Shown: positions 10,086 to 33,665 of the stretch, piece by piece
Layout: each line of letters begins with the position of its first letter
Numbering within the stretch: the first letter of the stretch is position 1
Assembly (NCBI RefSeq): GCF_031450785.1
Contig: NZ_JARTWB010000003.1
Location: forward strand, 248,001-312,000
Direction of reading: 5' to 3'
DNA: 64,000 bases
Source: Caballeronia sp. LZ062
Lineage (GTDB): Bacteria; Pseudomonadota; Gammaproteobacteria; Burkholderiales; Burkholderiaceae
Program-made: the position numbers and the translations under genes
The notes under the pieces: model-generated
Database searches by the model: none
What the model was told of the DNA's origin: nothing
The model's input: only the letters and a program-made list of their open reading frames with translations

Positions 10086-10095
10086 GAGCGGCGGC

Positions 10096-16660: not shown

Positions 16661-17020
16661 GGCAGTTTCCACTTGCGGTAGCGAAATTCTGCCACACTAC
16701 GTGGACAAAAAATTTCGACGAGTCGAGCATTCTTCTTCGCAAGCTGTTTATCCTCGTGACCTTACCGATACATGCCGATAAGCCGGTCTGCCGCCGACCT
16801 CAAAAAAAACGACGCTTCCGCGGCTAACACCGACGTTCGAAAAACCTTTCAAGACTGAGGCGTTGACGCTCTAATCCCTCACCGTCAACTGTCACGACGT
16901 AGACGCTCTTATAAAGATCGGCGGATGCGGAACAGAAGTTGCGGGGCCGGTTTCTTTGGACACGCGCTCAGCTGAGTGGGGACGAACGAATGGCCATTCG
17001 CTCGCCTCTTTCAATCTCTA
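16661..17020. promoter_or_regulatory. Divergent promoter region between two bacteriophytochromes
   Basis: About 360 bases between the two start codons. It must hold promoters for both photoreceptor genes unless the second begins at the GTG at 16976. It is less GC-rich than the flanking genes around 16690-16830, including an A run near 16802-16809. No palindrome stands out as an operator. Confidence 0.45.
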
Positions 17021-19252
17021 ATGACTACACAAATCCCGTCGGACAACGCGACGCTTCCAGAGAACGTTGCGAACTGCGATCAAGAACCTATACACGCCCT
17101 AGGACACATTCAGCCGCACGGCGCCCTTCTATGTTTCGCCAACGACGGGAAGCTTGTCGCCCTGAGTGAGAACGCACCGTCACTTCTCGGTCCGCTTCCA
17201 GCTGTCGGACGCTCTCTGAACGCATCTCATCTGGACGAATGCGCGAGGAAAGCCATTCGAAATGCACTCGAGCACCCGCCTCCTGCGGCAGAGAGTTCAG
17301 AATGGCTTTCTCCGGGCGGCGATTGCTTCGACCTTGTCATTCACTGCTCCGGCGGCGTTCTGGTAGTCGAGTTCGAGCGGGTGCCGCCGAATACCCCGCA
17401 CGCCTCGCAGTTCGCGCTCTATTGTCAAAGAGCGATCCAGCGCCTGCAGGCAAAGCAGCACGACGATGTCGCCGACCTGCTGCAAGAGACTGCGCAGGCA
17501 ATCCGAGCCATGACCGGCTTCGACCGCGTCATGGGCTACCGCTTCATGGATGACGGAAGCGGCGAAGTGATTGCGGAGGCCAAGCGCGACGACCTGACGC
17601 CTTACTTGCATCAACGCTATCCGGCGAGCGACATTCCGGCACAAGCTCGTCGTCTCTACACGCTCAATCCGATCCGCCAGATCGCTTCCGTCACGGCAAA
17701 GCCCGTCCCTATCGTTCCCGCTGTCAATCCCGACACCAACGCACCGTTCGACTTGAGCCATTCCGTGCTCAGAAGCGTGTCGACGATTCATATCGAGTAC
17801 CTGCGCAACATGGGCGTATGCGCGTCCATGAGCGTCTCCATCATTGTCGACGGCAAGCTTTGGGGACTGTTTGCTTGTCACCATATGCAACCGTATCGAG
17901 CATCGCACGCAGTGCGGCTCTCGTGCACGGTCCTGACGCAGGTCGTGTCGATCCTTGTCTCGCAGACGCAAGCGCGCTTGCGCCTTTCGCAAGATCATCA
18001 GACGCAGGAGTTCGGGCAGCGTGTCGCCTTCGATCTCACGCGAGCCGACGATCTCATCGCGGGTCTGAGCGCGGCTGCGCCGGCGATTGTCGCGCTCGTG
18101 GATTGTGACGACGCCTTTGCCGTAGTCGATCAAGAGGTGGTGCCTCTCAAAGGGACGGAAGTAGCGCATCGCGAGTCGATCGTCTCGCTCGTGACGCGCG
18201 TCGTCGACGCTCGACAGGACATGCTCGCAACAGCGTCGTGGACGCGCGATCTGAGCGACCTGGAACCCATTCGCACCGAGGGCGGGGCAGCCGCCGGATG
18301 CCTCGTCATTCACGTCGGAGGCGACGTGCCCGTTGCGATCGTTTGGGTTCGCAACGAACTCGTCGAGACCATCAACTGGGCCGGCCCCACCGAGAAGGTC
18401 GTAGCGCAGGGCCCTAACGGGCCGAGGCTGACGCCTCGCGGTTCCTTCGAAGTGTGGAAGCAGGTCGTCACAGGCTCCTGCCGTCCCTGGAATGAATCGA
18501 ATCTTCGTGCTGCGCGTGAATTGCGGGCGATCCTTCAGGACGTCGCACTGCAGCGTATGCGGGAAGCCGAACGTGCCAAGACCACGTTGCTCGCCACGCT
18601 CGGCCACGATTTGCGCAATCCCCTGCAAGCAATCAACATGGCCATGTTGCTGATGGGCCGTGGCCTGGCGTCATCAGTCGATACGGCTCGGCGTGTCGAA
18701 GGCTCGACACAACGGATGCAATCGCTCATCAACTACATCTTGGATGTGAGCCGCATCCGCTCGGGCCTCGGACTGGGCCTTAAACGAGAGTTCGTCTCCT
18801 TGCGACAAGTGATCGAGAGCACCGTAGAGCAGAATCAACTGGCTCATCCGGGCGTGACGATATCGACTCGCCTGACCGACGATATCGGCGATGCATTTAT
18901 CGATCCGGACAGGTTCAGCCAGGCCCTGACCAACTTGATCAGCAATGCGCGCCAGCACGGGGACATCTCACAGCCGATCGAAGTGACCACGTCGGTGGAC
19001 GGGACCACTCACGTCGTTGAGGTGAGCAATTGTCTCCGCGAGCGCCCAGGCGTCTCATTCGAAAGGCTGCTCGATCCTTTCAAGAGCGGGTCCATCGATA
19101 AATCCAACAATCGGGGCGGGCTGGGCCTTGGTCTTTATATCGCCAATGCAATCGTCAAAGGGCATGACGCTGCATTAGACGGGCGATTCGACGAGACCCG
19201 CGCGCGAGTGTTCATTCGGCTCGACCCGGATTCGAGAGCCAGAACGCATTGA
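17021..19252 (+). CDS. bphP: Bacteriophytochrome histidine kinase (second of two)
   Basis: A second red/far-red photoreceptor kinase, about 743 residues from ATG 17021 (a GTG at 16976 is in frame). Cys19 in ANCDQEPIHALG is the biliverdin-binding position. GAF motifs PASDIPAQARRLYTLNPIR and LRSVSTIHIEYLRNMG are intact, and a PHY domain precedes the kinase. The HisKA His lies in LATLGHDLRNPLQAINM and the ATPase domain has NLISNARQHGD and GGLGLGLYIANAIV. The kinase part is of a different subtype from the first phytochrome (HDLRNPL, PhyR-type neighbours absent). No response regulator is adjacent on its strand. Confidence 0.94.
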   Translation: MTTQIPSDNATLPENVANCDQEPIHALGHIQPHGALLCFANDGKLVALSENAPSLLGPLPAVGRSLNASHLDECARKAIRNALEHPPPAAESSEWLSPGGDCFDLVIHCSGGVLVVEFERVPPNTPHASQFALYCQRAIQRLQAKQHDDVADLLQETAQAIRAMTGFDRVMGYRFMDDGSGEVIAEAKRDDLTPYLHQRYPASDIPAQARRLYTLNPIRQIASVTAKPVPIVPAVNPDTNAPFDLSHSVLRSVSTIHIEYLRNMGVCASMSVSIIVDGKLWGLFACHHMQPYRASHAVRLSCTVLTQVVSILVSQTQARLRLSQDHQTQEFGQRVAFDLTRADDLIAGLSAAAPAIVALVDCDDAFAVVDQEVVPLKGTEVAHRESIVSLVTRVVDARQDMLATASWTRDLSDLEPIRTEGGAAAGCLVIHVGGDVPVAIVWVRNELVETINWAGPTEKVVAQGPNGPRLTPRGSFEVWKQVVTGSCRPWNESNLRAARELRAILQDVALQRMREAERAKTTLLATLGHDLRNPLQAINMAMLLMGRGLASSVDTARRVEGSTQRMQSLINYILDVSRIRSGLGLGLKREFVSLRQVIESTVEQNQLAHPGVTISTRLTDDIGDAFIDPDRFSQALTNLISNARQHGDISQPIEVTTSVDGTTHVVEVSNCLRERPGVSFERLLDPFKSGSIDKSNNRGGLGLGLYIANAIVKGHDAALDGRFDETRARVFIRLDPDSRARTH

Positions 19253-19335
19253 CTTCGTGATGGCGCCTTCGCGACAGCCCGGCCATGCGCAACGGTTCGA
19301 TCCGACGAGGGACGAGCGCCGGTAATGCGCACGCG

Positions 19336-20280
19336 TTAGGAAGCATGATCCCGGACCAGAACGTCCCAAGGCGCGGGAGACGGACAGATGTCCTGCAAGA
19401 AGCCGACGAACGCTTTTACCGCCGGATTGCTGCGGCGGCTCTCGGGCCACACGGCATGTAGATGAAATCGGTCGTAGGCGAACTCATGCAGCACCGGTAC
19501 GAGCTCCCGCCGTCGAACGTAAGGCGCCGCGATATACGTCGTGGAAATTCCGATGCCGGCGCCGGCAGCCAACGTCGCGGCAATCGCATCGCTGACGTCG
19601 ATGATCAAAGCCGACGCAGGCGTGAACTCGACGAGCTTGCCTCCCACGCTGAATGGCCACGCGGCCTCCTGCCCCGTCGACTGATATCTGAAGTTCACGC
19701 ACTCGTGCTGCAAGAGATCGTTCGGGTGCTGCGGCACGCCTCGCTCTTGCACATAGCCGGGCGACGCGAACGCGCAGATCCGATGCGGTGCAAGACGACG
19801 CGCGATCAACCGCGTGTCGCCGGGATCGCCGACTCGAATGGCAACATCCACGCCCTCCTCGACCAGATCGACGTAGCGGTCGCTCAGGCGCACATCGACG
19901 GTCACTCTCGGATGCTGTCGGCGAAACGCGGGCAACGCCGGCGCGAGAATATTCACGCCGACGGGCAACGGCGCCGTCACCTTGAGCGTTCCCGCTGGCT
20001 CCGCGCGCGCAGCCGCGACGCCTTGTTCGATGCCTTCCGCCTCGCGCAACAAGCGTTGCGTGCGCTCCAGAAGATCTCGCCCCTCCGGCGTCAGCGTGAG
20101 CGAACGCGTGGTCCGGCTGAACAGCCTGAGGCCGAAATGCTGCTCCAGACGCTGGATGCTCTTGCTGATCGCCGATGGCGAAACGGACAGCGAACGCGCG
20201 GCGGCCGTGTAACTGCCCAGCGACGCGGCCCGCGCGAAAGCAATCAGCCCTGTCAGTCTTTCGATGGCGATTTGTTCCAT
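19336..20280 (-). CDS. LysR family regulator (DHCW/CrgA-like group)
   Basis: A 314-residue LTTR with N-terminal winged helix (residues 5-65; ARSLSVSPSAISKSIQRLEQHFG) and a periplasmic-binding-fold effector domain. SRTTRSLTLTPEG is typical of the CrgA-like subgroup that often represses a neighbouring oxidoreductase. The ATG at 20280 is used; a much longer open frame upstream runs antisense to the SDR gene and is not coding. It is divergent from the SDR at 20386, with 105 bases between, so it most likely controls that gene. Confidence 0.92.
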   Translation of the reverse strand: MEQIAIERLTGLIAFARAASLGSYTAAARSLSVSPSAISKSIQRLEQHFGLRLFSRTTRSLTLTPEGRDLLERTQRLLREAEGIEQGVAAARAEPAGTLKVTAPLPVGVNILAPALPAFRRQHPRVTVDVRLSDRYVDLVEEGVDVAIRVGDPGDTRLIARRLAPHRICAFASPGYVQERGVPQHPNDLLQHECVNFRYQSTGQEAAWPFSVGGKLVEFTPASALIIDVSDAIAATLAAGAGIGISTTYIAAPYVRRRELVPVLHEFAYDRFHLHAVWPESRRSNPAVKAFVGFLQDICPSPAPWDVLVRDHAS

Positions 20281-20385
20281 GATGGCATCATTAAAGCGAA
20301 GGACGGCGGGATTATCAAGCCAGGTTTCGCGAATTAACCTTCTTCCATCGACGCCGAAACCGGCGAAGTCAAACAGGAGAAGGGA

Positions 20386-21153
20386 ATGAACGCGAATACG
20401 AAAGCGCAAGACGCACAGGCCGAAGCAGTCGCTCACCGCGCGCTGGCAGGCAAGACGGCACTGATCTTTGGCGGAACATCGGGCATCGGGCTCGACGCGG
20501 CGATCCAGGCCAAGCGGGCGGGCGCGGACGTCATCGTCGTCGGGCGATCTGCCGACACGGCGCAACGCGTCGCCGCAGAACATGGCTTCGCCGGATGGCG
20601 CGCGGCGGACGTGACCGACGCGAACGCTCTGCAGGAGGCCGTTCGCGACATTCCCAAGGTCGATCATCTGGTGCTGCTGGCGGGCACCTTTGTGGCAGGG
20701 ACGGTGCGCGAGGCCGACGTAGCGCATCTGCGAAACGCATTCGAGGAACGCATCTGGGCGGCCGTGCACGTCATTCGCGCCCTCGGAGACCGGTTGAGCG
20801 CAGATGGCTCGATCACGTTCATCTCGGGCAGTCTCGCCGACCGGCCGAACGCCTGCGGCACCGCAGTGCTCGCCGCCGCATCCGCCGCGATGGAAGCGCT
20901 CGCGCGCGGCCTCGCACTCGAACTGGCGCCGGTGCGAGTCAACACGCTGTCGCCCGGTCCGATCGACACGCCGATTCTGCGTAAAGCGCTCGGTGACGCG
21001 CGCGATGCGGTCGTGGCGAACATAGAGAAGACGTTGCCGCTGCATCGTCTCGGCACCGCGAGCGAAGCCGGAGCGGGCGTGGTGTTCCTGATGACCAATG
21101 GCTTCATGAACGCAGCGACGCTGAACGTCGATGGCGGCGCGCGCCTCGTCTAG
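20386..21153 (+). CDS. Short-chain dehydrogenase/reductase-like protein lacking Tyr/Lys
   Basis: A 255-residue Rossmann-fold SDR. The cofactor motif is FGGTSGIGLDAA and the C-terminal segment NTLSPGPIDTPIL is typical. The usual catalytic YxxxK is not there: in GTAVLAAASAAMEALARG the Tyr position is Leu162 and the Lys position is Ser166, and the NNAG motif is LLAG. It may bind NAD(P) without classical dehydrogenase chemistry or use other residues. AGGAGAAGGGA precedes the ATG. Divergent LysR regulator upstream. Confidence 0.87.
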   Translation: MNANTKAQDAQAEAVAHRALAGKTALIFGGTSGIGLDAAIQAKRAGADVIVVGRSADTAQRVAAEHGFAGWRAADVTDANALQEAVRDIPKVDHLVLLAGTFVAGTVREADVAHLRNAFEERIWAAVHVIRALGDRLSADGSITFISGSLADRPNACGTAVLAAASAAMEALARGLALELAPVRVNTLSPGPIDTPILRKALGDARDAVVANIEKTLPLHRLGTASEAGAGVVFLMTNGFMNAATLNVDGGARLV

Positions 21154-21344
21154 CCCCAAAGGCAGTCGAGGAAGACACTGCACCCGGCTTAAGCGACATC
21201 GATCATGGCGCCGTACTACGCGAAACGCGCGAGCGCCGGACTCACCGCGAGTGAAGCGAGCCGCATCTCGCAGGCAAGCGAAGATGCTTCCTGTCAACAT
21301 GAGGCCCACGCGCGGGCAGCTATGTCCGGCGGGCTGACCGGCTC

Positions 21345-22430
21345 TTACGCCATGCGCTGCAAATAGCCGGGAAGGTTAGGTTCCGGCAGTACGGCCAGCA
21401 CCTTCAACCGCTGACGCGTGCGTTTCTCGCCCCGGCGCAGATGGTCTTCCAGCGCCCGCGAAGCCGCGCGCACGTCCCCGGCCACGAGATGTTCCAGGAC
21501 GGCGCGATGTTCCATCAACGTGCCCATCTCGGGGTGCAGCCGGAAGGCATCGTAGAAGGCGTGATTCACGATGAGCGGCATGTGCGCGTGGCTCACGGCC
21601 GCCAGCAGCTTCCGGTTCGGCGCGTGAGACAGGAACTTGTCGTGCAGCGTCTTTTCGAGTTCGTAGAGGACCGCTGCATCGATCGAATCGGGATCTCCGA
21701 TGGCGCGTTCGATATCGGCAAGCGCCGCTTGTATTTCCTCCGTCGGCAGCAGCGGCGCGCTCATGCGCAGCGCGGCCGGCTCGAGCAAGACGCGCAACTC
21801 GTAGTCCTCGCGCACCGCCCGCGCGGTCAGCGGCCCGCAGAGCCAGTGGGAGTACGCCGACTTCTCAACCAGCCCCCGGTCGCGCAGCCGGTTCAACGCT
21901 TCGCGCACCGTCCCGCGGCTGACGCCGAAGGTCGCGGCGGCATCGCTTTCATCGATGCGAAAGTGCCCGAAGACGATGCCGAGCGAAATCGCCGCTTCCA
22001 TCGAATCGTAGATGCGCTCGCTGTTCGATGGAATGTCGAGCGGCTCGGGCAAGTTGTCGAATCCGAGAGCGTCTCCCGAAAGCGGCTCGCGCATCGGCTC
22101 GGGCACGCTGCCGTCCGCGCCTGCGACCAGATACCCGCGCCCCTCGAACGTATGCAGCAGGCCGCCTGCGTGAAGCATCTCGAAGGCCTTGCGCACCGGC
22201 ACGCGGCTCGTGCCGAAGATGCGGGCGACGGGCCCTTCCAGCAGCACGAGGCCCGGTTTCACGCGGCCGAGTGCGATGGCGGCTCTCAGACGATCGTAGA
22301 TCACGCGATACCGGAGCCGGCTATCGGTTTCGACGAGGTTGTCGCCCACCGTCGTATTCGTCGATACATCCGGCGTGATCGATTCTGCCCTGGCGCGTGG
22401 AGTTCGTGCAGCGGTTGTCCGTCTTGTCAT
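21345..22430 (-). CDS. GntR-type regulator with two winged-helix domains plus FCD
   Basis: About 361 residues from ATG 22430. Two separate GntR winged helices are visible: about residues 40-103 (ARIFGTSRVPVRKAFEMLH) and 138-199 (ATFGVSRGTVREALNRLRD). An FCD ligand domain follows to the C-terminus. Ordinary FCD regulators have one winged helix and about 230 residues. It is the last gene of the nine-gene operon, 19 bases after the solute-binding-like gene, so it probably regulates that operon. The frame is open further upstream into the previous gene, but that part is not needed for any domain. Confidence 0.87.
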   Translation of the reverse strand: MTRRTTAARTPRARAESITPDVSTNTTVGDNLVETDSRLRYRVIYDRLRAAIALGRVKPGLVLLEGPVARIFGTSRVPVRKAFEMLHAGGLLHTFEGRGYLVAGADGSVPEPMREPLSGDALGFDNLPEPLDIPSNSERIYDSMEAAISLGIVFGHFRIDESDAAATFGVSRGTVREALNRLRDRGLVEKSAYSHWLCGPLTARAVREDYELRVLLEPAALRMSAPLLPTEEIQAALADIERAIGDPDSIDAAVLYELEKTLHDKFLSHAPNRKLLAAVSHAHMPLIVNHAFYDAFRLHPEMGTLMEHRAVLEHLVAGDVRAASRALEDHLRRGEKRTRQRLKVLAVLPEPNLPGYLQRMA

Positions 22431-22449
22431 CGTGGAACGAACGGCGCCA

Positions 22450-23673
22450 TCAGGACCGCATGAACTCGGTCCAGCGGCGCACGAGGTAGTTATGCTCATC
22501 CATGACCGAATCCCAGACCGCGATCCGGCTCATGCGTGCGACGTAATCGCCGCCGTCGCGCACCTGGCCCGCCTGGACCAGATGCTGGCTGGTCGGGCCC
22601 GGCAAGTCCGTCGACGCCGGCGCACCATCGTACCAGTACGCCCATTCCGCGTCGTTCATGTGCCCGCGCGAGCGCTCGGGATTGGAGATGTAGAAGCCCT
22701 GCCGCGCCATCGTCGCCCCGGCCCAGCCTTCGAGCCACCAGTTCAGGTACTCGTAGGCGGCATCGAGCACCCGGCCATGCGCGAGCCTCGAGATGCCGAG
22801 CCCGCCGAACCACGCGCGATACCCTTCTCGCGGCCGCGCGAGGCGAAAGCGCAAGCCGGCACGCTCCAGTTCGATGGTCGCCGGAGACCATATGCTCTGA
22901 ATTACCACCTTGTTCGCGATCATGAGTTGCGCCGCTTCGGCGAAGCTCGACCAGAAACCCGCGAAATGGCCGCGGCGCTTGAAGTCGATAAGCGTCGCGA
23001 TCAGTTGGTCGATCTCCTCGATCTCCAGATTGCCGATGTCCTTGAAGCGCATGAGTCCGCTCGCTTCGACTGCGAGCGCCGCGTCTATGGCACCGATCGC
23101 GGCATCCGCCTGCAATGCGACGCGGCCCGCGAGTTCCGGCGCAAGCAGCCAGGCCCAGCTTTCCTCGCCCGCGGTGAGCGTGGCCGGCAGCGCGTCGTCG
23201 AGATAGACGAAGCTGTCCGCGTTGTGAGTGAGCGGCAGCATGCTGATGCGCCCGCTCGGCGTGCGCCCGAGCGACCCGTCGCTCTGCACGAAAAGGCGAT
23301 CCGCCGGCACGCTGCCCGCCGCCCGGCGTACAGCAGAGCGGCCGATGCGCCCGGTGCGTGGCAACGCATTGATCTCTTCCCAGCGCCGGACGCGCGAGCA
23401 GTCGATTGGCTGCAGTGCGTGCGTCGGCCATAGACAGTCGAGGCTGTGGAACCACTGATCGTAAAGCTCGTAGCGTTCCGGATGCATTGCACCTTCGCGC
23501 TGCACGCTGGAGCCGTCGTCGACAATGAAACGCAGGCGAATTCCGAGGTCCTGTTCGGCGCGCTCGCGAATGTGCTCCTGAAGCGTGACGGACGTACCGA
23601 GCACGCGCAGTTCGACCTTCGACGGGTGAATGGCTGGCGCGGACGCGGGCGACTTCGGGCGGACGGATTTCAA
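22450..23673 (-). CDS. Solute-binding-protein-like protein (PotD/PotF type) without signal peptide
   Basis: About 407 residues with the fold of extracellular solute-binding family proteins: N-terminal VELRVLGTSVTLQEHIRERA, middle VVIQSIWSPATIELERAG and C-terminal AAYEYLNWWLEGWAGATMARQGFY, as in polyamine-type binding proteins. The start is inferred as TTG 23673, whose last two bases overlap the GTPase stop (TTGA), so translation is probably coupled. No export signal is seen from this start, and no permease or ATPase gene is in the operon. It may act in the cytoplasm as a ligand-binding partner, or the start may be wrong. Confidence 0.72.
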   Translation of the reverse strand: MKSVRPKSPASAPAIHPSKVELRVLGTSVTLQEHIRERAEQDLGIRLRFIVDDGSSVQREGAMHPERYELYDQWFHSLDCLWPTHALQPIDCSRVRRWEEINALPRTGRIGRSAVRRAAGSVPADRLFVQSDGSLGRTPSGRISMLPLTHNADSFVYLDDALPATLTAGEESWAWLLAPELAGRVALQADAAIGAIDAALAVEASGLMRFKDIGNLEIEEIDQLIATLIDFKRRGHFAGFWSSFAEAAQLMIANKVVIQSIWSPATIELERAGLRFRLARPREGYRAWFGGLGISRLAHGRVLDAAYEYLNWWLEGWAGATMARQGFYISNPERSRGHMNDAEWAYWYDGAPASTDLPGPTSQHLVQAGQVRDGGDYVARMSRIAVWDSVMDEHNYLVRRWTEFMRS

Positions 23674-24731
23674 TCTACGGTTTCGACTGTCTGGAGATGC
23701 CGGCAGAAGCGGCGATACGACTGCTCGACGGCATCGCGCGCAAGCCCTTCTGCGATGAAGACGAGCCGCGAGCGCGGCGTGGCGTCCGGCCACGCATCGA
23801 GATGCAGGACCGGATGCACGAGATGGTGCACGGCGTGCAGGACGACCGGCTGCGCGACGCCGGCAAGCGCGAGCAGTCCCTTGACCCGCAGGATGGTATC
23901 ACCGTGCCGGTTCAGCAGCATCGTGAGCCAGAGCGTGAAAACAGGCCAGTCGATGGGTTCGTCGAATTCGATTGCGAACGCGGAAAGCGAGCCCAGAGCC
24001 TCGCGATGCGCAGGCAGCGCGTTGAGCCGCGCGAGCGGATTCTCATCATTGCGCTCGGCAGATGACGGCGGGCGCGCGCGCTGCACGAACGCCGTGAAGT
24101 CGTGCGCATTCGCTGCGGCATCGAGCACGATCGATGCATCGTCCTCGCGCGTGCGCCGCGCCACGCGCGCTGCGGGATTCAGAGCCGCCAACATGAGTTC
24201 GAGCGCATCGAGCGCTTCTGCGTCGGCGAGATCGGCCTTGCTGATGACGATGCGGTCGGCAGCGGCCACCTGACCCATCCACTCGGGATGATGTTCGCGC
24301 TGATGCGTGGCGTTGAGCGCATCGACGACGGTGACGATCGCCGAGATCGAGTAATGACTGGACACGATACGGTCGCCGAGCAAGGTCGCGACGATGGGCG
24401 CGGGCGTGGCGAGTCCGGTTGTCTCCAGCACCACGCGCGTGAACGGCGGCACTTCGCCGCGCGCCCTCTGCGAGAAGAGATGCGCGAGCGCGTCCTTCAG
24501 TTCGCCGCGAATCGCGCAGCAGACGCAGCCGTTATCGAGCAGGACCGTCTGCGCCTGCTCGACTTCGCCCATCAGCAAATGGTCCAGTCCGACTTCGCCG
24601 AACTCGTTGACGAGCACGGCCGTGTCACGGGCCGCGTCGCCCTTGAGGACATCCGCGAGCAGCGTCGACTTGCCGCTGCCGAGAAAGCCGGTGACGATCG
24701 TCACCGGAATAACGTCGTAGGCGAGGCTCAT
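23670..24731 (-). CDS. COG0523 family GTPase (CobW-like putative metallochaperone)
   Basis: A 353-residue G3E GTPase. Walker A is GFLGSGKST (residues 15-23), the metal motif CxCC is at Cys69-Val70-Cys71-Cys72, and the guanine motif is SKAD. A C-terminal CobW_C domain follows (ending near residue 345). Family members deliver Zn, Co or Fe to specific enzymes using GTP. It overlaps the preceding small CGMCG gene by four bases (ATGA). Operon position suggests it loads metal into an operon enzyme, for which the PgdA/imidase-like hydrolase is the obvious candidate. It is not near cobalamin genes, so the name cobW is not applied. Confidence 0.9.
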   Translation of the reverse strand: MSLAYDVIPVTIVTGFLGSGKSTLLADVLKGDAARDTAVLVNEFGEVGLDHLLMGEVEQAQTVLLDNGCVCCAIRGELKDALAHLFSQRARGEVPPFTRVVLETTGLATPAPIVATLLGDRIVSSHYSISAIVTVVDALNATHQREHHPEWMGQVAAADRIVISKADLADAEALDALELMLAALNPAARVARRTREDDASIVLDAAANAHDFTAFVQRARPPSSAERNDENPLARLNALPAHREALGSLSAFAIEFDEPIDWPVFTLWLTMLLNRHGDTILRVKGLLALAGVAQPVVLHAVHHLVHPVLHLDAWPDATPRSRLVFIAEGLARDAVEQSYRRFCRHLQTVETVD

Positions 24732-25027
24732 GGCAAGACTTCATCCTCCGAGAACAGCGTCAGCGGATCGAGCGGGCGGCCGAGCATGGTTTCGGCGGCT
24801 TTCCAGACCTGCATGAAGTCGTCGACGATGACCTGCGCCCCGGTCGGCGACGCGAGCACGAATGACTGCCCGTGGAAATCGGCGAGCCTGAGACGGTAAC
24901 TTTGCAGCAGGCGGTTCGCGTGTGCGATCTGCACGTAGCGCTGCCGCCGCGCATTCACGCCCTCACCCGCCGCGACGGTGTTCGACCAGTGACGCCCGCC
25001 ACCCAATAATCCGCACATGCCGCACAT
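24728..25027 (-). CDS. Small conserved-looking protein with N-terminal CGMCG
   Basis: A 99-residue protein of unknown function starting MCGMCGLLGGGRHW, so a Cys-x2-Cys pair lies at the extreme N-terminus. The rest has RYVQIAHANRLLQSYRL and GQSFVLASPTGAQVIVDDF, which suggests a small alpha/beta fold. A strong AAGGAGG site precedes the ATG. Its stop overlaps the GTPase start by four bases, so the two are probably made in matched amounts. A metal-binding or chaperone-partner role is an inference from that coupling and the Cys pair. Confidence 0.78.
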   Translation of the reverse strand: MCGMCGLLGGGRHWSNTVAAGEGVNARRQRYVQIAHANRLLQSYRLRLADFHGQSFVLASPTGAQVIVDDFMQVWKAAETMLGRPLDPLTLFSEDEVLP

Positions 25028-25041
25028 TGCGTCGTCCTCCT

Positions 25042-25800
25042 TTAGGGCATCACGTCGCCCGAGTTCGGCCCGAGCGTCTGGCCGACGAACAGGTTGCCGC
25101 CGGGATCGGATGCGAGCAGTACGGCCGCCGGCGCGACTTCTTCCGGGCGTCCGAAGCGCCTGAGCGGCAGTTCCTTCGACTTCGACTCCTTCCAGGCCGC
25201 GCTGATGCCATCGACGAGCGGCGTTTCGATAGGCCCGGGCGCGATGGCGTTGACGAGCACGTTGTCCGGCGCGGCCTCGATGGCAAGCGACTTTGTGAAT
25301 CCGATCACGCCGGCCTTGGCCGCCGAATAGTGCGTCAATTCAGCGCCGCCCTTGATCCCGAGTTGCGACGCCACATTGATGATGCGCCCCCAGCGCTGCG
25401 CCGTCATGGACGGTAGCGCGCGCCGGGAGCACAGAAAGACGCTGCGCAGATCGACGCGCATCATCTCGTCCCACATCTGCGTGGTGAGGTCGGTGCAGCG
25501 CGCCTGCGTGAGCATCCCCGCATTGTTCACCAGAATGTCGATGCCGCCGTACACGTCGATACATCGATCGACGATGCCGTGCGCGCCCGCCTCGTCGCCG
25601 ACGTCGGCGGTGACCGTCTCGACTTGCACGCCGAGCGCCCGGCACGCGTCGGCTTGCGCTCTGAGACGCGATTCGTTGAGATCGGCGAGCACGAGTCGCG
25701 CGCCCGCTTCGGCAAAGGCGAGCGCGATGGCCGCGCCGATGCCGCTTGCCGAACCGGTGACGACGGCGCGGCGGCCGTCGAGTGAGAAAGTCGAAGCCAT
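25042..25800 (-). CDS. SDR family oxidoreductase (FabG-like)
   Basis: A 252-residue classical SDR: TGSASGIGAA cofactor loop, NNAG, catalytic Ser in NVASQLGIKG and YSAAK (Tyr and Lys present), then NAIAPGPIETPL. Domain length is standard. It is 14 bases before the small CGMCG gene and 25 after a second SDR. The two SDRs differ clearly in sequence, so they may act on successive hydroxy or keto intermediates. Exact substrate unknown. Confidence 0.92.
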   Translation of the reverse strand: MASTFSLDGRRAVVTGSASGIGAAIALAFAEAGARLVLADLNESRLRAQADACRALGVQVETVTADVGDEAGAHGIVDRCIDVYGGIDILVNNAGMLTQARCTDLTTQMWDEMMRVDLRSVFLCSRRALPSMTAQRWGRIINVASQLGIKGGAELTHYSAAKAGVIGFTKSLAIEAAPDNVLVNAIAPGPIETPLVDGISAAWKESKSKELPLRRFGRPEEVAPAAVLLASDPGGNLFVGQTLGPNSGDVMP

Positions 25801-25825
25801 GTGAGAGCGTCCTGTATGCAGTGAA

Positions 25826-26581
25826 TCAGCCCGGCCAGCGCACGGTCAGCCCGCCGTCCGCGATGATCGACTGACCGGTGATGTACGAAGCGTCGTCGCT
25901 CGTCAGATAGCGGATCAGCGCAGCGATTTCGTGCGGTCTGCCGACGCGTCCGAGCGGAATGCCCTTCGCCGCTTCGCGCAAGCCTTCGGGCCCGAGCGAG
26001 TTGACGGCATCGAGCGACTGCGGTGTCTCGATCAGGCCGGGAATGACCGCGTTGCAGCGGATGCCGCGCGGCGCGAGTTCCATCGCGACGGCGCGGCACA
26101 GGCCGGGCACGCCCGACTTTGCCGCCGAATAATGCGTGTGGTTTTCCCAACCGTAGACGCCGCCCGCAATCGACGACACGGCGACCATCGCGCCGCCGTC
26201 GCTCATGTGGCGCGCCGCCGCGCGGAACGTGCGCATCACGCCGGACAAATCGACATCGAGCATCTGGTGCCACTGCTCGTCGGTCATCTCCGTCAGCGGC
26301 GACGCGCGCAAGAGGCCGGCGTTGGCGACCGCGTAGTCGATGCGACCGAAGCGTTCCATCGCAACCGTCGCGAAGGCTTCGACCTGTTCGGCGGATGTCA
26401 CGTCCACGGCATGCATCACGCATTGCCCGCCCGCCTCTTCGACGGCGCGCGCGGTGGATTGCGGATCATGCGGATCGCCGGGGAAATAGCCGCCGACCAC
26501 CGCGACGCCGATCTGCGCGTAAGCCACGGCAAGCGCCTGCCCGATGCCGCTCGCCGCGCCCGTTACCAAAGCTGCTTTCAC
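25826..26581 (-). CDS. SDR family oxidoreductase
   Basis: A 251-residue classical SDR with TGAASGIGQAL, NAG (VANAGLL), catalytic Ser in VAVSSIAGG and YSAAKSG, followed by NAVIPGLIETPQ. It starts at a GTG (26581) with AGGAG eight bases upstream. It lies 18 bases after the MFS gene. Part of the nine-gene operon; probably an NAD(P)-dependent alcohol dehydrogenase for an intermediate of the pathway. Confidence 0.91.
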   Translation of the reverse strand: MKAALVTGAASGIGQALAVAYAQIGVAVVGGYFPGDPHDPQSTARAVEEAGGQCVMHAVDVTSAEQVEAFATVAMERFGRIDYAVANAGLLRASPLTEMTDEQWHQMLDVDLSGVMRTFRAAARHMSDGGAMVAVSSIAGGVYGWENHTHYSAAKSGVPGLCRAVAMELAPRGIRCNAVIPGLIETPQSLDAVNSLGPEGLREAAKGIPLGRVGRPHEIAALIRYLTSDDASYITGQSIIADGGLTVRWPG

Positions 26582-26599
26582 GAGAACTCTCCTGTCGGA

Positions 26600-27937
26600 T
26601 TACTTGGTGTCGGCGGGATTCACATGCCGCGCGAAGAAAATCAGCACGCCCGACAGGAAGCACGGCACCGCGCCGAACCAGAGCGCTGCGTGCAGCCAGT
26701 CGCCGCCGTGATTGAGCATCGACGTCACGCCGACGCCGGCGAGAATCGCGCCGATCGGGCCCATTGCGTGAACGATCGAGCTACCCGTGCCGCGGATCGC
26801 CGTCGGATAGCTTTCGCCGATGAAAAACAGCGCCGCCGAATACGGTCCGATCAGGAAGAACAGTCCGAGGCTATACAGCGCGACGACCACGCCCGCGCTG
26901 CTCGGGCCGAACAGCATGCCCGCGAACGACAGCCCGCCGAGCATCCAGCCGATGGCAAGCGTGTTGCGCCGGCCGATCTTGTCGCCGATAAAGCCGTGGC
27001 TCAGATAGCCGCAATAGCCGATCACGTTGGACAGCACCAGAATCAGCAGCGAGTTCTCAAAGGACACGTTGTGCACGCGCGTGAGCACCGTCGTGCCGAG
27101 CACGCTGAAGACCTGAATCGCCGACCAGTTCAGCAGAATGCCGCCGCCGAGCACGAGCGTCGCGCGCAACGCGCTGCCGCGAAACGCCTCGGCGAGACCC
27201 GCGCGGCTGTGCTCTTCGTAGTCCACGGAATGGGCGCTCGCCAGCGTGCGCGCTTCGCTGTCCTGCCCTGCTTCGCGCAGATGCTTGATGCGCTTGTGCA
27301 GGACGAACTGGGGGCTTTCCTTCAGGCGCCGCGTCATGAAGAAGATGACGATGGCGGGAAACGTCGCGAAGATGAAGCAGCCCTGCCAACCGATGCGCGG
27401 CAGCAACAGCGCGGTCAGGCCCGACGCGATGAGCGCGCCGATCGGCCAGCCGCCCTGCACGAGGCTATAGATGAAGCCTTTGTTGCGATTGAGCTTCGGA
27501 TCGTTGGCGGCCGAATACAGTTCGTTGAGATAGGTCGCGTTGACGGTTTCCTCGGCGTAGCCGAGCCCGGACAGCGAGCGGATCAACACGAGCGGCACTT
27601 GTCCCATTGCGCCGCCGACGACCGTGAGCCCCGAACACAAGGCGGCGCCCGCGACCGTCCACAACAGGCCGGCTTTTCGTCCGAGCCTGTCGAGTAACGG
27701 CCCGATGGCGAAAGCGATCACCGCCGTGCCGATCGCGACGAGCGTGGCGATCTCCGCCTGCGCCGCCGCATCCCAGTTGTAGTGTTTGCCGATCTCCGGC
27801 AGCAGCGTGCCGAACAGAATGAAGTCGTACACGGCGAACACCCACGCGAAGAACGCGACGATGGTCGCCCGCTTCACGTCGGACGGCAAAATCTGCTCCA
27901 GCCGGAAGCCGGAGGCGGACAACGGGTTTTCTTTCAT
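26600..27937 (-). CDS. MFS transporter, sugar/organic-acid type
   Basis: About 445 residues with twelve predicted membrane segments. The loop between helices 2 and 3 has GPLLDRLGRKAGLL, and helix 8-9 loop has GDKIGRRNTLAIG, both MFS signatures. Start at ATG 27937 is supported by AAGGAG seven bases upstream; ATG 27970 is also in frame. It is 61 bases after the deacetylase gene. It would import the amide or imide substrate or a product, and is the only transport gene in this operon. Confidence 0.9.
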   Translation of the reverse strand: MKENPLSASGFRLEQILPSDVKRATIVAFFAWVFAVYDFILFGTLLPEIGKHYNWDAAAQAEIATLVAIGTAVIAFAIGPLLDRLGRKAGLLWTVAGAALCSGLTVVGGAMGQVPLVLIRSLSGLGYAEETVNATYLNELYSAANDPKLNRNKGFIYSLVQGGWPIGALIASGLTALLLPRIGWQGCFIFATFPAIVIFFMTRRLKESPQFVLHKRIKHLREAGQDSEARTLASAHSVDYEEHSRAGLAEAFRGSALRATLVLGGGILLNWSAIQVFSVLGTTVLTRVHNVSFENSLLILVLSNVIGYCGYLSHGFIGDKIGRRNTLAIGWMLGGLSFAGMLFGPSSAGVVVALYSLGLFFLIGPYSAALFFIGESYPTAIRGTGSSIVHAMGPIGAILAGVGVTSMLNHGGDWLHAALWFGAVPCFLSGVLIFFARHVNPADTK

Positions 27938-27998
27938 CGTGGCGCTCCTTTGGAGCTCGGGTGTTGACATGATCGGGGCTCTTGTCGCTGAGGTCGTG

Positions 27999-28880
27999 TC
28001 AGGATTTGCGCGGCTGGCGGCGCAGGAAGTCGTCGGCGATTTCGCCACAGGTGCAAAAGCGCACGCCTTCGTGCTTGCGGAAATGCGCGATCAGGCGCTC
28101 GAGCATCATGAGCACCTGCGCGCGGCCGGAAACGTCCGGATGGATCGTGATGGGGAAGACCGCATAGTCGTGTTCGCGGTACACCCAGTCGAACTGGTCA
28201 CGCCACATTTCTTCGATATCGCGCGGATTGACGAAGCCGTGACTGTTCGGCGCCTTCTTGATGAACATCATCGGCGGGAGATCGTCGAGGTACCAGTTCG
28301 CCGGGATCTCGACGAGATCGGTCTCCTGTCCGCGCACGAGCGGCTTCATCCACGTGTCGGGATGTTTGCTGTAGTCGATCTTCGTCCACGAGTCGCCGAC
28401 GCGCACGTAGTACGGGTGGTAGTCGTTGTGCATCAGGCTGTGGTCATACTTGATGCCCTTCTTCACCAGCAGTTCGTTGGTCACGTTGCTGAATTCCCAC
28501 CACGGCGCCACATAGCCGGTCGGCCGGCGGCCCGACAGTTTCGTCACGAGTTCGATGCTGCGGTCGAGCACGGCTTCTTCCTGCTCGGGCGTCATCGCGA
28601 TCGGGTTTTCGTGGCTGTAGCCGTGGATGCCGATTTCATGTCCCGCATCGGCGACGGCTTTCATCTGCTCGGGAAAGGTCTCGATGGAATGACCGGGGAT
28701 GAACCACGTCGTCCTGATCTTCTCGCGCTCGAAGAGCCTCAGCAGGCGCATCGAGCCGACTTCGCCCGCGAACAGGCCGCGCGAGATGTCGTCGGGCGAG
28801 TCCTCGCCGCCGTAAGAGCCGAGCCAGCCGGCGACCGCATCCACGTCGATGCCGAATGCGACCAGAATTTCCTTAGCCAT
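27999..28880 (-). CDS. Polysaccharide deacetylase family hydrolase, PgdA/cyclic-imidase-like
   Basis: A 293-residue metal hydrolase very similar from memory to Helicobacter pylori PgdA (HP0310), including [18 protein letters not shown] and the C-terminal region. Metal ligands Asp14, His86 and His90 are in place (IDVDA and HGYSHE). There is no signal peptide or membrane anchor, so it acts in the cytoplasm. The H. pylori protein's fold resembles cyclic imidases and allantoinase PuuE. With an amidase beside it and catabolic genes around, ring opening of a cyclic imide is more likely here than peptidoglycan deacetylation. Substrate is inferred. Confidence 0.88.
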
Positions 28881-28907
28881 GCGATGTTCTCCTTGAAGCG
28901 GTTGAAG

Positions 28908-30284
28908 TCAGTTCACAGCGACCGTCTGCTCGACGGTCTGCGCAACGGCGATGAGCGCGTCGTCGTCGTTCTGGACGCGCATCAGTTGCACGCTGGTGGG
29001 AAGGCCCGCCGCGTCTGCCCCCGTGGGCATCGCGATGGCGGGTGTATCGAGAAAGCTGCCGGGCATCGTCATCGAGAGCGTCGCGAGGTTCACGCGGGCG
29101 AACAGTTCGGGGTCGGCTTCGAGTGGCGCGCATTCGGGCGCGACGTGCGGCACGGTCGGCAGAACCAGCGTGTCGCCGCGGAGTTCGTCGTCGAATTGCG
29201 CGATGAGCCGCGCGCGCTCCGCGAGCAATTCGGCAAGACGCGGCGCCGGCACGTTCCGGCTCAGTTCGAGCCGCGTGCGCACGCGCTGGTCGATGCGCTC
29301 GGCATCGTCGGAATCAAGCACGCTGCGGTAGGCCTCGAACGCCTCCAGCGAGCCGAACCAGCCGCGTTCGCGAATGAGGTCGCAGGCGGCGTCGAACGCG
29401 GCCACAGGCACTTCGTCGACGCGCGCGCCCGCTTTCGCCAGCCGCGCCAGGAAGCGCATGAAGTTGTCGGCGACGGCGTCGGTCACGGCAAAGCGCGCGT
29501 GCCAGCCGGATGGCACGACGAAGCGGGCGCCGCGCAGATCGGGCAGCGCCGCCATTGCTTCGCGGCCGCGCACCACGGCGTCGAAAGCGGCGCAGTCGGC
29601 CACGGTCCGGGCGAGCGGCCCGACGGTGTCGGCGGATCTCGAGAGGCCCGCCATGCCTTCCTGCGGATAACGCGCCCGGCTCGCGCGATAGCCGACGACC
29701 CCGTTCAGCGCGGCGGGCACGCGAATGGAGCCGGCGGTATCGGTGCCGACGGCAATCGGCACGACGCCCGTCGCGACCGCGATCGCCGCCCCGGACGACG
29801 ATCCGCCCGGCGCGCGATGCCCGCCGGCCTCGACGGTTGCATCGAACGCCGCGTTGAAGGGCGTGCCGAAGTGCGGATTCAGCCCGAGACCCGAGTAGGC
29901 GAACTCGCTGAGGTTCGTCTTGCCGATGCCGACAAGTCCTGCGTGAACGGCCGTCGCGACGAGCGGCGCGTCGGCGCTTGCCGGGGCGCGGTTGCGAAAC
30001 AGCGCCGAACCGGCCGTCGTGACGCTGCCGGCGATGTCGAACAGGTCTTTCCAGGCCACCGGCACGCCGTCGAGCGCGCTCGACGGGCGTCCGTCGCGCC
30101 GGCGCGCCGCTGCGGCGCGGGCCTCGTCGAGGGCTCGCGATTCATCGATTGAAATGAACGCGGTATTCGCCTGACGCGCCGCCGCCAGGGAGGCTCGCAC
30201 GACCTCTTCGACATCGGCGCTGCCGTCCGCATAGGCCGCGGCGAGCGCGACGGCGGATGCGGCGTGAGCAGGATGAGCTGGCAC
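28908..30284 (-). CDS. Amidase, amidase-signature family
   Basis: About 458 residues with the Ser-cisSer-Lys machinery: Lys79 in PVAWKDLFD, the GGSSSG loop near Ser163, and nucleophile Ser186 in GTDTAGSIRVP. GTG 30284 is preferred as start because GGGAG lies six bases upstream; an upstream in-frame start at 30359 gives a Lys/Arg-rich extension with no support. It is the first gene of the operon and would hydrolyse an amide, for example the half-amide formed by an imidase. The deacetylase follows after 27 bases. Confidence 0.91.
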   Translation of the reverse strand: MPAHPAHAASAVALAAAYADGSADVEEVVRASLAAARQANTAFISIDESRALDEARAAAARRRDGRPSSALDGVPVAWKDLFDIAGSVTTAGSALFRNRAPASADAPLVATAVHAGLVGIGKTNLSEFAYSGLGLNPHFGTPFNAAFDATVEAGGHRAPGGSSSGAAIAVATGVVPIAVGTDTAGSIRVPAALNGVVGYRASRARYPQEGMAGLSRSADTVGPLARTVADCAAFDAVVRGREAMAALPDLRGARFVVPSGWHARFAVTDAVADNFMRFLARLAKAGARVDEVPVAAFDAACDLIRERGWFGSLEAFEAYRSVLDSDDAERIDQRVRTRLELSRNVPAPRLAELLAERARLIAQFDDELRGDTLVLPTVPHVAPECAPLEADPELFARVNLATLSMTMPGSFLDTPAIAMPTGADAAGLPTSVQLMRVQNDDDALIAVAQTVEQTVAVN

Positions 30285-30321
30285 TCGAAACTCCCTATTA
30301 ATGTACTTCGTCAACAACATA

Positions 30322-30338
30322 CGTTTACGATGCAAACG
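30322..30338. promoter_or_regulatory. Candidate operator for the amidase operon
   Basis: CGTTTACGATGCAAACG is a near-perfect inverted repeat (arms CGTTTAC and GCAAACG, one mismatch, three-base centre) about 38 bases before the GTG of the first operon gene. Position and size would suit a GntR dimer such as the tandem winged-helix regulator at the operon end. Confidence 0.35.
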
Positions 30339-31309
30339 CCAAAAAAAAACGGCAACCACGGGATAACCCTAGGTCGCCGTCGCTGCGCCGCCAGCGGACG
30401 GATTGCCGGGGCGTGCTTGTATGGGGCGCTTCGGTCTAGTCGTCGGCTGCACGCGCTGGGCGATGCCCGCGGGCGCGACGCATCCGGTGCTGCAATGGCA
30501 AGTCGTCAAGCAGTGATGCGCGGGGCGCACGACGACGGACGAGCCTGGCGTCGAAGATGATTTCGCGTGAGATGCGACGCGCGTTCTTCGCACGGTTGGG
30601 CAGAAACCCGGTGCGCGACGGCAAGCGGAAGTTCATCGGCCAGGTGGCTGCTCGTCACGCCGACTGCCCAACGGTGTGACTCTTTCGTTCGCCAATAACG
30701 ATGTCCTTGCGGATGCGGGGGCCGCCGGCCGATTCCATTTCGCTCCGAATACACAGATGCGGAAGGCGGCCGCCGCTGGCGGCTGGGCTAACGGCCGAAA
30801 TCGTTCAATACGGCAAACTTCGGGAACGTCCGCAAGATTCTGTGCAGCGACTCGTACCCTACGACCTGGCGGGATTCGGGCGCGGCTCGTTTCTCGTCGG
30901 CATCGGGCCAGCCGGCGTCGGGCGGATTGTCATCGAGGGAAGTGGCCCTTACGCCACGGCAGTTGCCTGAACATCCATTAACGGCTGTGCAATCCAGCTA
31001 GACGGTTGAGGTCAGCAAACAGCCGGACAGCGGCGGACCGAAGTAGAGAGGACCCACGGCCTTGGCGCGATTGCGATCCGCGAACCGGTAGCGCAAGTTC
31101 AGAATCACGGCGCGAAACAAGCCCGCTACGCACACGCCCACAGCGAAACGCAACGCGTAGAGAAACAAAACGGGCGATGCCGGTCTCGCGCCCCGCGCAG
31201 TCCGGAAAGGTCCGCGTGTGCATTGACTTCCTGAAGCAGGAACTCGCGCACGGCGAATCTGCGTCAAGAAAGGAGCGATGATGCCCGACGCCTAATCGCT
31301 TGATGTCTC
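30339..31309. other. Gene-poor region between amidase operon and LysR gene
   Basis: About 970 bases with no supported gene. Several short open frames run in both directions, without domain content or ribosome sites. One minus-strand frame at 30998-31267 encodes a hydrophobic stretch (VLFLYALRFAVGVCVAGLF) that could be a remnant of a membrane protein. The left end holds the amidase promoter. It may be decayed coding sequence. Confidence 0.4.
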
Positions 31310-32215
31310 TCAGCGCAAGCTGCTGAAAAGCGTCGCCATTACATCGCGCAACCAGCGATTACCCGCTTCATGGTGGTATCGCGCGTGCCAGTGCTGCCGC
31401 ACCGCGAATCCTTCCACCGGGATCGGGCACGGATGCAACGACAGCCCATTGACCTTTGCAAGCGTCTGCCCGATATGCCGCGGCAGCGTCGCGATGAGAT
31501 CCGTCGTCTGAATAATGGCCCCGAGTCCCAGAAAGCCGGGCAATTCCAGCACGACATCCCGCTCGATCTGCTCGCGCACGAGCGCCTGTTCCAGCAATTG
31601 CGCGCCAGTTCCGGCCGCGATTGCGACGTGCCCTTCCGCACGGTATTGCTTCGCGCTCAGCTTCGCGCGCACACGCGGATGATGCGGATTCAACAGACAC
31701 ACCCAGTCCTGCATATAGAGCTGTTGCTGGTAGATGCCGCCGCCCAGCCAGGGCACGTGGCCGACAGCCAGATCGGCCTCGCCCGATTCCAAAGCACGCT
31801 CTGTGTTGCCGTCGATTCGAGCCGCTTCCAGACGGATGCCCGGCGCCTGCGCACGGACATGCGCGAGCAAGCGGGGCAACAGCGTGATGTGACTCGCATC
31901 CGTCATGCAAATGCGAAACCTTCGCTTCGCCGTGGCAGGATCAAAGGCGATTCCCCACGCTGTGAAGCGCCGCAACGATTCGAGGATTTCGCGGCACGGC
32001 CCGATGAGCGCGTCGGCCTGCGGTGTCGGCGCCATGCCGCCGGGCGTGCGAATGAATAACGGGTCTTGCAGATACTCTCGCAACCGTCCGAGCCAGATGC
32101 TGATGGTCGGCTGACTCTGGCCGAGCTTCTCGGCCACGCGCGTGACGTTGCGCGCGTCGTACAGCAGGTCGAAAAGCTGAAGCAGCTTCAGGTCGGGCAG
32201 TTCGGTCGGAGTCAT
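31310..32215 (-). CDS. LysR family regulator
   Basis: A 301-residue LTTR. The winged helix (about residues 8-65) has DARNVTRVAEKLGQSQPTISIWLGRLRE, as in the NodD/NahR-like group that begins with LLQLFDLLYDARNVT. The effector domain follows, with GTGAQLLEQALVREQ. It is divergent from the PanE-like gene and the pathway operon at 32323-36638; the 107-base gap holds two dyads. It most likely activates that operon with a pathway compound. Confidence 0.92.
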   Translation of the reverse strand: MTPTELPDLKLLQLFDLLYDARNVTRVAEKLGQSQPTISIWLGRLREYLQDPLFIRTPGGMAPTPQADALIGPCREILESLRRFTAWGIAFDPATAKRRFRICMTDASHITLLPRLLAHVRAQAPGIRLEAARIDGNTERALESGEADLAVGHVPWLGGGIYQQQLYMQDWVCLLNPHHPRVRAKLSAKQYRAEGHVAIAAGTGAQLLEQALVREQIERDVVLELPGFLGLGAIIQTTDLIATLPRHIGQTLAKVNGLSLHPCPIPVEGFAVRQHWHARYHHEAGNRWLRDVMATLFSSLR

Positions 32216-32220
32216 CGCAC

Positions 32221-32257
32221 TAATACCGCGTTATTACGGGAAGCAATGACGTCATTG
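32221..32257. promoter_or_regulatory. Two dyads in the LysR/PanE divergent promoter
   Basis: TAATACCGCGTTATTA at 32221-32236 is a 16-base dyad with 14 matching positions. CAATGACGTCATTG at 32244-32257 is a perfect 14-base palindrome. They lie directly upstream of the LysR start and about 65-100 bases before the operon start, where LTTR recognition and activation sites normally sit. Confidence 0.5.
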
Positions 32258-32322
32258 TAGCCATTGCATTGCCATGATGAGCAGCACCTCCTATCGTTGC
32301 ATCCAGACATCAGGAGACGCCA

Positions 32323-33273
32323 TTGAAGATCGCAATTCTCGGAGCCGGTGCGCTGGGCTGCGCCATCGGTTCGACACTGACTGAGGGTGGCCACGACGTC
32401 TGGCTGATCGACCGCTCGCCGGCACACGTCGATGCAATGCGCCGCGACGGCCTGCAGGTCGACGATGCCGAAGGTTCCCGACGCGTCAAAGTGCGCGCGG
32501 CCACGAAAGCCGCCGAAGTCGGTGCAGTGGATTTGGTCGTCGTGCTGGTCAAGTCGTTCCATACCGATTCGGCCATGCGCGGCGCGCTCGATCTCATCGG
32601 GCCCGAAACGGTCGTGCTTTCGTTGCAGAATGGACTCGGCCATGAAGACGTGCTCGCCGACGTCGTGGGCCGCGAGCGCGTGCTGGCAGGCAAGACGTAT
32701 GTCGGCGGCGTACTGCGCGGTCCGGGACATATCCAGTCCGGCGTCAGGGGCAAGCTCACCTACATCGGCGAACTCGATGGCCAGCTCACCGCACGGGTGC
32801 AGGCTATTGCCGAAGCCTTCAACGCATCGGGCCTCACGACGACGGTGAGCGACAACATCCTCGGCACGATGTGGGACAAGCTGCTGATCAACGTCGCAAC
32901 GGGCGCGATAACCGGCATCACCCGCCTCACGTACGGACAGCTCTACGACGAACCGGTGTTGAAGGCAACCGCGCTCGCAGCGGTCTCCGAGGCGATGGCC
33001 GCAGCGCAGGCGGCCGGCGTGACGCTGTCCATCACAGACGCAGAGAAAGCGTGGACGCTCGCCGCCGAAGGGCTGCCCTTCGCCTTCAAGACCTCGATGC
33101 TGCAAAGCCTGGAGAAAGGCTCGATCACCGAAATCGACTTCATCAACGGCGCGGTCGTGCGCTGGGGCGAACGCCTCGGGGTACCGACGCCTGTGAATTC
33201 GACGCTGGTCGCATGCATCAAGGGCATCGAGCGCGCCATGACGGACCATCAGCGCGAAGGAGCAGCGGCATGA
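32323..33273 (+). CDS. 2-dehydropantoate 2-reductase family protein (PanE/ApbA fold)
   Basis: A 316-residue ketoreductase with N-terminal NAD(P) motif GAGALGCAIG and the family segment KSFHTDSA, QNGLGHED, and C-terminal Lys/Asn region (TMWDKLLINVATG). The start is TTG 32323 with AGGAG six bases upstream. Because it sits in a catabolic operon beside a divergent LysR gene, it is likely a 2-keto/2-hydroxy acid dehydrogenase instead of the pantothenate enzyme. The VOC gene starts in its stop (ATGA). Confidence 0.9.
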   Translation: MKIAILGAGALGCAIGSTLTEGGHDVWLIDRSPAHVDAMRRDGLQVDDAEGSRRVKVRAATKAAEVGAVDLVVVLVKSFHTDSAMRGALDLIGPETVVLSLQNGLGHEDVLADVVGRERVLAGKTYVGGVLRGPGHIQSGVRGKLTYIGELDGQLTARVQAIAEAFNASGLTTTVSDNILGTMWDKLLINVATGAITGITRLTYGQLYDEPVLKATALAAVSEAMAAAQAAGVTLSITDAEKAWTLAAEGLPFAFKTSMLQSLEKGSITEIDFINGAVVRWGERLGVPTPVNSTLVACIKGIERAMTDHQREGAAA

Positions 33274-33662: not shown

Positions 33663-33665
33663 AAC

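Follow-up and report, generated by a model that had tools for sequence, protein, structure and literature searches.

What compound is handled by an operon that combines an amidase, a PgdA-like hydrolase and two dehydrogenases with a COG0523 GTPase, and why should the GTPase and a small protein of an unnamed family accompany the hydrolase? The question is raised by nine genes of Caballeronia sp. LZ062, contained in a 64,000-nucleotide stretch (contig NZ_JARTWB010000003.1, positions 248,001 to 312,000; hereafter the window). The genes are co-oriented on the minus strand at 21345-30284 and form an operon encoding the amidase, the hydrolase, an MFS protein, two short-chain dehydrogenases (SDRs), a protein here called CGMCG, the GTPase, a solute-binding-type (SBP-like) protein and a GntR regulator. 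On balance we favour the view that the operon encodes a GntR-controlled, nitrogen-releasing pathway for a cyclic imide, in which the CGMCG protein and the COG0523 GTPase metallate the hydrolase. The basis of this view is gene content, conservation, the co-occurrence of the hydrolase, CGMCG and COG0523 genes, active-site residues and absent leader sequences.

Conservation of the hydrolase, CGMCG and COG0523 genes

The core of the operon consists of three genes, those of the hydrolase, the CGMCG protein and the COG0523 GTPase. The hydrolase and the CGMCG protein were searched separately in two genome draws. Among 398 Pseudomonadota, including the genome of the window, the hydrolase was found in 10 genomes (E <= 1e-80) and CGMCG in the same 10 (E <= 0.001). 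These genomes belong to seven genera, and the two genes share a strand, at distances from 25 bases to about 3.2 kb. Among 250 Burkholderiales six genomes had the hydrolase (E <= 1e-60) and seven had CGMCG, all six being shared; the seventh CGMCG gene, found without hydrolase, is at the end of a contig of 4,691 bases, where it starts at base 307. Because two genomes, including that of the window, occur in both draws, the combined number of genomes with both genes is 14. A COG0523 gene follows CGMCG in 15 of the 15 CGMCG genomes, with a 190-codon open reading frame (ORF) between the two in one of them (G195). No p-value is claimed, because related genomes do not count independently; four of the ten Pseudomonadota are from one genus. 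Of the predicted metalloenzymes, only the hydrolase accompanies the CGMCG/COG0523 pair in every examined locus uncut by a contig end.

In a phylogenetic tree 31 operon COG0523 proteins were on one side of a branch separating them from 23 paralogues (support 97/88; 98% of the bootstrap trees). The nearest paralogues were those of loci L105, L120 and L131. For this tree the operon rows were picked by hand, eight duplicate rows and L042 were removed and a single row had its label changed to operon; no ORF was obtained on extraction from two of the 34 loci (L100 and L111), and 13 of the 43 matches in the underlying list had no locus. The co-occurrence with the hydrolase and the separate clade suggest that the COG0523 GTPase and the CGMCG protein are probably a metal-loading pair for the hydrolase, as had been proposed in the preliminary description of this DNA.

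The GTPase has the Walker A motif GFLGSGKST and the sequence GCVCC, corresponding to GCxCC. Its matches to PF02492 and PF07683 (CobW_C) are over the cut-off, and it is similar to YjiA (1nij, E 6.8e-41). The CGMCG protein had no match in Pfam or NCBIfam at E 0.001, and 1047 homologues were found at the same threshold. Cys5, Gly6 and Trp14 are invariant and Cys2 is nearly so in 67 chosen sequences; the homologue P0067, which is outside this set, has Arg at position 5.

Further loci were collected with the CGMCG protein as bait, so that its presence in the 28 named loci is by construction. All nine genes were matched in 17 of the 28 at the identity cut-offs of the script, which did not demand gene order and matched the amidase and the GTPase of L042 in two pieces each. 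By gene, matches were obtained in 28 loci for COG0523, 27 for the hydrolase, 23 each for SDR-A, the SBP-like protein and GntR, and 22 each for the amidase, the MFS protein and SDR-B. The only named locus without a hydrolase match, L039, is a 5.3-kb contig. The gene set thus recurs beyond the strain of the window; Paraburkholderia, Caballeronia, Burkholderia, Robbsia, Pararobbsia, Delftia and Lautropia are among the organisms named. Either the cluster or its core was also observed on plasmids of Paraburkholderia, Klebsiella, Pantoea, Halomonas, Rhizobium, Agrobacterium, Mesorhizobium, Thioclava, Leisingera and Acidiphilium, related plasmid forms spanning Alpha- and Gammaproteobacteria. Nine of the 61 plasmid records with CGMCG matches were inspected, plus the Acidiphilium locus L062, where an unannotated CGMCG ORF (9880-10206) lies between the hydrolase and COG0523 genes. 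The spread is patchy, with CGMCG in 14 of 101 relatives searched.

Hydrolase, substrate and proposed pathway

The hydrolase is close to HpPgdA of Helicobacter pylori (3qbu) over its full length, with 221 of 292 residues (76%) identical. Among the HpPgdA residues named in PMC3084791 it keeps D14, H86 and H90, the Asp/His/His metal site already noticed in the preliminary description, and also D12 and H247; W127 and W128 are likewise kept. With the PuuE allantoinase model TIGR03212 it scored 82.7 bits, below the cut-off of 424.6. Fungal HxnM belongs to the same family (cd10938). According to the available parts of PMC9304392 and PMC8478523, HxnM is assigned the opening of a cyclic imide, its deletion strain accumulates 3-hydroxypiperidine-2,6-dione, and in the pathway the dehydrogenase HxnW acts before it and the amidase HxnN after it. 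By this family membership the hydrolase of the operon is predicted to be a ring-opening cyclic imidase.

The Pfam match of the hydrolase is to the polysaccharide deacetylase family, which raises the alternative that it deacetylates peptidoglycan or other acetylated compounds. Chitin, acetylated xylan and pNP-acetate were reported as substrates of native HP0310, the H. pylori protein, in a paper whose accessible text also cites peptidoglycan phenotypes (PMC3688963). The structural study, as far as its text is available, describes a tetramer with a buried, poorly accessible metal site, no polysaccharide groove and no signal peptide, which was inactive on the sugars, acetylated polyamines and dipeptides tested (PMC3084791). 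By eye the hydrolase of the operon also lacks a leader, and its neighbourhood, with importers, dehydrogenases and an amidase, is catabolic. We regard deacetylation as very improbable; action on acetylated polymers keeps some weight because PMC3688963 reports it, though the structure paper, in its available part, found none.

In the pathway that we favour, the MFS protein would import a small cyclic imide-type compound. Oxidation of a ring hydroxyl by one or both SDRs would follow, by analogy with HxnW, which makes the fungal imide in this way. The hydrolase would then open the ring, and the half-amide so formed would be hydrolysed by the amidase, giving ammonia and a dicarboxylate. The catalytic metal of the hydrolase would be supplied by a dedicated pair, the COG0523 GTPase and the CGMCG protein. 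The PotD-like protein, which lacks a leader, would bind the ligand in the cytosol, and the GntR regulator would control the operon. The SDRs had been placed after ring opening in the preliminary description; by analogy with HxnW they may act before it rather than on the product. We infer the substrate, the order of the steps, the metal and the roles of the CGMCG protein, the SDRs and the SBP-like protein.

The amidase has the motifs WKD at 78, GGSSSG at 160 and GSIR at 185, which we take to hold the catalytic Lys, cis-Ser and Ser of the amidase signature family. It scored 544 bits with NF004766 (cut-off 559). The nearest model of the MFS protein was that of aromatic acid/H+ symport, with a score below the cut-off (Table 1). 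Across loci the transporter slot is filled by MFS, ABC or NCS1 proteins. NCS1 permeases were recognised in L060 (PF02133) and, by similarity, in the Halomonas locus L069, which also has an MFS protein by similarity; in the stretch of Leisingera DNA inspected, NCS1 is present and an SDR is missing. The second-hydrolase slot is occupied by the amidase in most full loci. In L061 it holds an asparaginase (PF00710), and similarity points to the same type of enzyme in L029 and L137, two loci of one genus group. Directly after COG0523, L029 encodes a protein of the M20 hydantoinase/carbamoylase family (TIGR01879, 434.5 versus a cut-off of 204), with relatives in L137 (95%, after COG0523) and L135 (78%, further downstream). 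An Asp/Glu/hydantoin racemase family protein follows COG0523 in L092, and an AMDase-like protein with GAF was found in L040 and L045. In L054 and L093 local comparison recognised no second-hydrolase-type gene adjoining the triad.

These swapped-in neighbours are compatible with ring opening of an imide or a ureide, and they do not fix the substrate. The M20, racemase-family and NCS1 proteins would suit a cyclic ureide of the hydantoin or dihydropyrimidine type, with the second hydrolase acting on a carbamoyl product, and the nearest solved folds to HpPgdA given in the available part of PMC3084791 are PuuE allantoinases. Still, the operon in the window has a plain amidase and neither a carbamoylase nor a racemase, the substrate of HxnM is an imide in the fungal papers as far as available, and the structure report, in its accessible text, found HpPgdA inactive on allantoin. 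Opening of a ureide instead of an imide appears unlikely to us; the substrate may differ between lineages. The earlier proposal of an imidase acting with a half-amide amidase gains support, by inference, from the HxnM/HxnN precedent and from the asparaginase-, carbamoylase- and racemase-family neighbours.

Two observations concern other genes near related clusters. L060 has at 16450-20273 a second polysaccharide deacetylase, an amidase and an ABC gene beside a urea-carboxylase-associated protein, and no CGMCG was recognised there. Genes of the 5-oxoprolinase (Pxp) type are near the cluster in L062 (annotated pxpA), L059 ('allophanate hydrolase' genes) and L095 (similar genes).

Several points speak against a metallated imidase with dedicated partners. 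A recombinant imidase of Pseudomonas putida is active when produced in E. coli, so that partners would not seem strictly necessary. A search for folds gave no confident match for CGMCG, and its Cys-containing N-terminus was modelled at pLDDT < 50. The COG0523 protein of L094 is on a very long branch, and its placement is unsure. Six of the 28 named loci lack a same-strand amidase at the identity used, and SDRs, MFS, SBP-like or GntR genes are absent in five or six, some of which are short contigs. To these are added the lack of activity of HpPgdA on allantoin and the activities reported for native HP0310, both mentioned above, and the fact that the available text of PMC9304392 and PMC8478523 describes no CGMCG or COG0523 partners of HxnM. 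The pair could instead regulate the hydrolase or serve zinc homeostasis during induction. The missing fold match would agree with this, as would the NKxD position of the GTPase, which by eye reads SKAD, with PF02492 and PF07683 still over the cut-off. The pair co-occurs with one metalloenzyme, however, and its COG0523 clade is separate; we give a role other than metallation a small share of the probability.

Operon layout and regulatory region

Table 1. Coordinates of the operon genes and of the upstream candidate site
Feature	Position	Strand	Evidence
Amidase-signature amidase, candidate half-amide hydrolase	28908..30284	-	PF01425 E 5.6e-69; motifs
HpPgdA-like CE4 hydrolase, predicted metal-dependent cyclic imidase, 293 aa	27999..28880	-	PF01522; 3qbu E 5.4e-159
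MFS importer (putative)	26600..27937	-	PF07690; TIGR00895 146.7 bits vs cut-off 418.55
Short-chain dehydrogenase B	25826..26581	-	PF13561; TGxxxGxG + YxxxK
Short-chain dehydrogenase A	25042..25800	-	PF13561; TGxxxGxG + YxxxK
CGMCG protein of an unnamed family (99 aa), candidate partner in metal delivery	24728..25027	-	
COG0523 (G3E) GTPase, candidate metal insertase	23670..24731	-	PF02492 E 2e-45; PF07683
PotD/PotF-fold solute-binding-type (SBP-like) protein, no signal peptide, 407 aa from TTG	22450..23673	-	
GntR/FCD regulator, two winged-helix domains	21345..22499	-	Two PF00392 stretches + PF07729
Candidate 30-base imperfect palindrome directly upstream of the amidase, possible regulator site	30298..30327	-	

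The tight packing with two four-base overlaps, stated in the preliminary description, was traced to the CGMCG/COG0523 and COG0523/SBP-like junctions; the remaining gaps from the amidase to CGMCG are 27, 61, 18, 25 and 14 bases. The TTG start of the SBP-like frame shares the TGA with the GTPase stop, and TTGA or GTGA is present at the comparable place in 21 of 23 relatives. A start at 23616 was ruled out, the codon there being GTC. At its other end the SBP-like frame overlaps the GntR start at 22499 by 50 bases. Alternative GntR starts at 22430 and at the GTG at 22349 would leave gaps of 19 and 100 bases, respectively. Four annotated proteins related to the regulator have 331-339 residues, and their best helix-turn-helix match starts between residues 3 and 20; the true start may therefore be nearer to 22349.

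The SBP-like protein has a PotD/PotF-type fold. No leader was found in the window copy, and there are no ABC genes among the nine operon genes. A leader scan covered 39 copies, of which 38 lie downstream of COG0523 and that of L062 lies close by on the opposite strand; four matches (the second copy of L061, L134, L135 and L136) were left out, and five copies had leaders too short for a hydropathy value. The 15-residue hydropathy mean exceeded 1.0 in L098 only, and there only from a far-upstream start. Five scored relatives outside the operon slot had values of 1.13-1.47 and twin-arginine leaders.

The tandem winged-helix architecture ascribed earlier to the regulator was borne out by two PF00392 stretches plus FCD in the window protein, whose second winged helix sets it apart from the GntR/FCD regulators to which it otherwise conforms. 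Two such stretches were present in all six operon regulators scanned (the window and five other loci); in L059 the FCD match was just under the cut-off. The palindrome upstream of the amidase is self-complementary in the window at 18 of 30 positions. With the L036 site, picked by eye, as template, 17 of 18 upstream regions scored at least 20 of 30 (shuffles: mean 14.3, maximum 20), the relatedness of the regions not being controlled. It is a candidate site of the regulator.

Also upstream of the amidase, at 30351-30378, an inverted repeat is followed by a T-run, by eye common to close relatives whose DNA diverges further upstream. Still further upstream, at 31310-35335, a LysR gene and divergent forward genes of ketopantoate-reductase-, glyoxalase-, MaoC-like and CaiB-type CoA-transferase proteins were recognised by eye. 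Beyond the GntR end there are a forward SDR (20386-21153, PF13561) and, on the opposite strand, a frame that looks LysR-type by eye (19336-21309). A forward 758-aa ORF at 16976-19252 presumably encodes a bacteriophytochrome histidine kinase, judged by eye from a motif.

Relation to known systems

HpPgdA (HP0310; 3qbu, 4ly4) has the same active-site residues as the hydrolase and likewise no signal peptide, but it is annotated as a peptidoglycan deacetylase. PMC2770081 counts HP0312 in the COG0523 family; in PMC3866246, HP0309 appears as an N-carbamoyl-D-amino acid amidohydrolase and HP0311 as a hypothetical protein. We tentatively raise the possibility, which we ourselves think doubtful, that CGMCG is a new metallochaperone subunit needed together with COG0523 by HpPgdA-type imidases across Proteobacteria; HP0310-HP0311-HP0312 would then be the same triad, and HpPgdA an imidase assayed without its maturation partners. 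The link to HP0311 and HP0312 is a prediction from the locus tags in the two papers. COG0523 proteins are encoded in most genomes and few of their clients are known; the tight, mobile triad points to a client that can be tested and perhaps to a new partner protein, and bears on the real function of HpPgdA.

The activator Nha3 of Fe-type nitrile hydratase is likewise a GCxCC GTPase encoded in one operon with its presumed client (PMC2770081). Here, in contrast, the client would be a CE4 hydrolase and CGMCG is added; the clade is separate from the paralogues compared, a set without Nha3. PuuE is also a CE4-type ring hydrolase, and some loci have carbamoylase-family, racemase-family and NCS1 neighbours as in PuuE/hydantoinase systems; HpPgdA binds metal, whereas PuuE does not, according to the available part of PMC3084791. 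The polyamine-binding proteins PotD and PotF share the fold of the SBP-like protein, which differs by lacking a signal peptide and by the absence of ABC genes from its operon.

Literature searching did not turn up any report of an operon of this kind with the maturation pair, the leaderless PotD-like protein or the tandem-GntR regulator. For the enzymes, the earlier statement that no such pathway was known is too strong. The lower part of the fungal nicotinate pathway has an imide-making dehydrogenase, a hydrolase of the same family and a PF01425 amidase; partners of the CGMCG, COG0523, SBP-like or GntR type, present in the operon, do not occur in the fungal descriptions available (PMC9304392, PMC8478523). 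The earlier fungal hydroxylation and ring-reduction steps have no counterpart among the nine operon genes, which were the only ones searched, and the imidase and amidase pair is matched at the family level only. The chemistry of the pathway itself is already known, and the operon would represent a bacterial counterpart to fungal imide breakdown.

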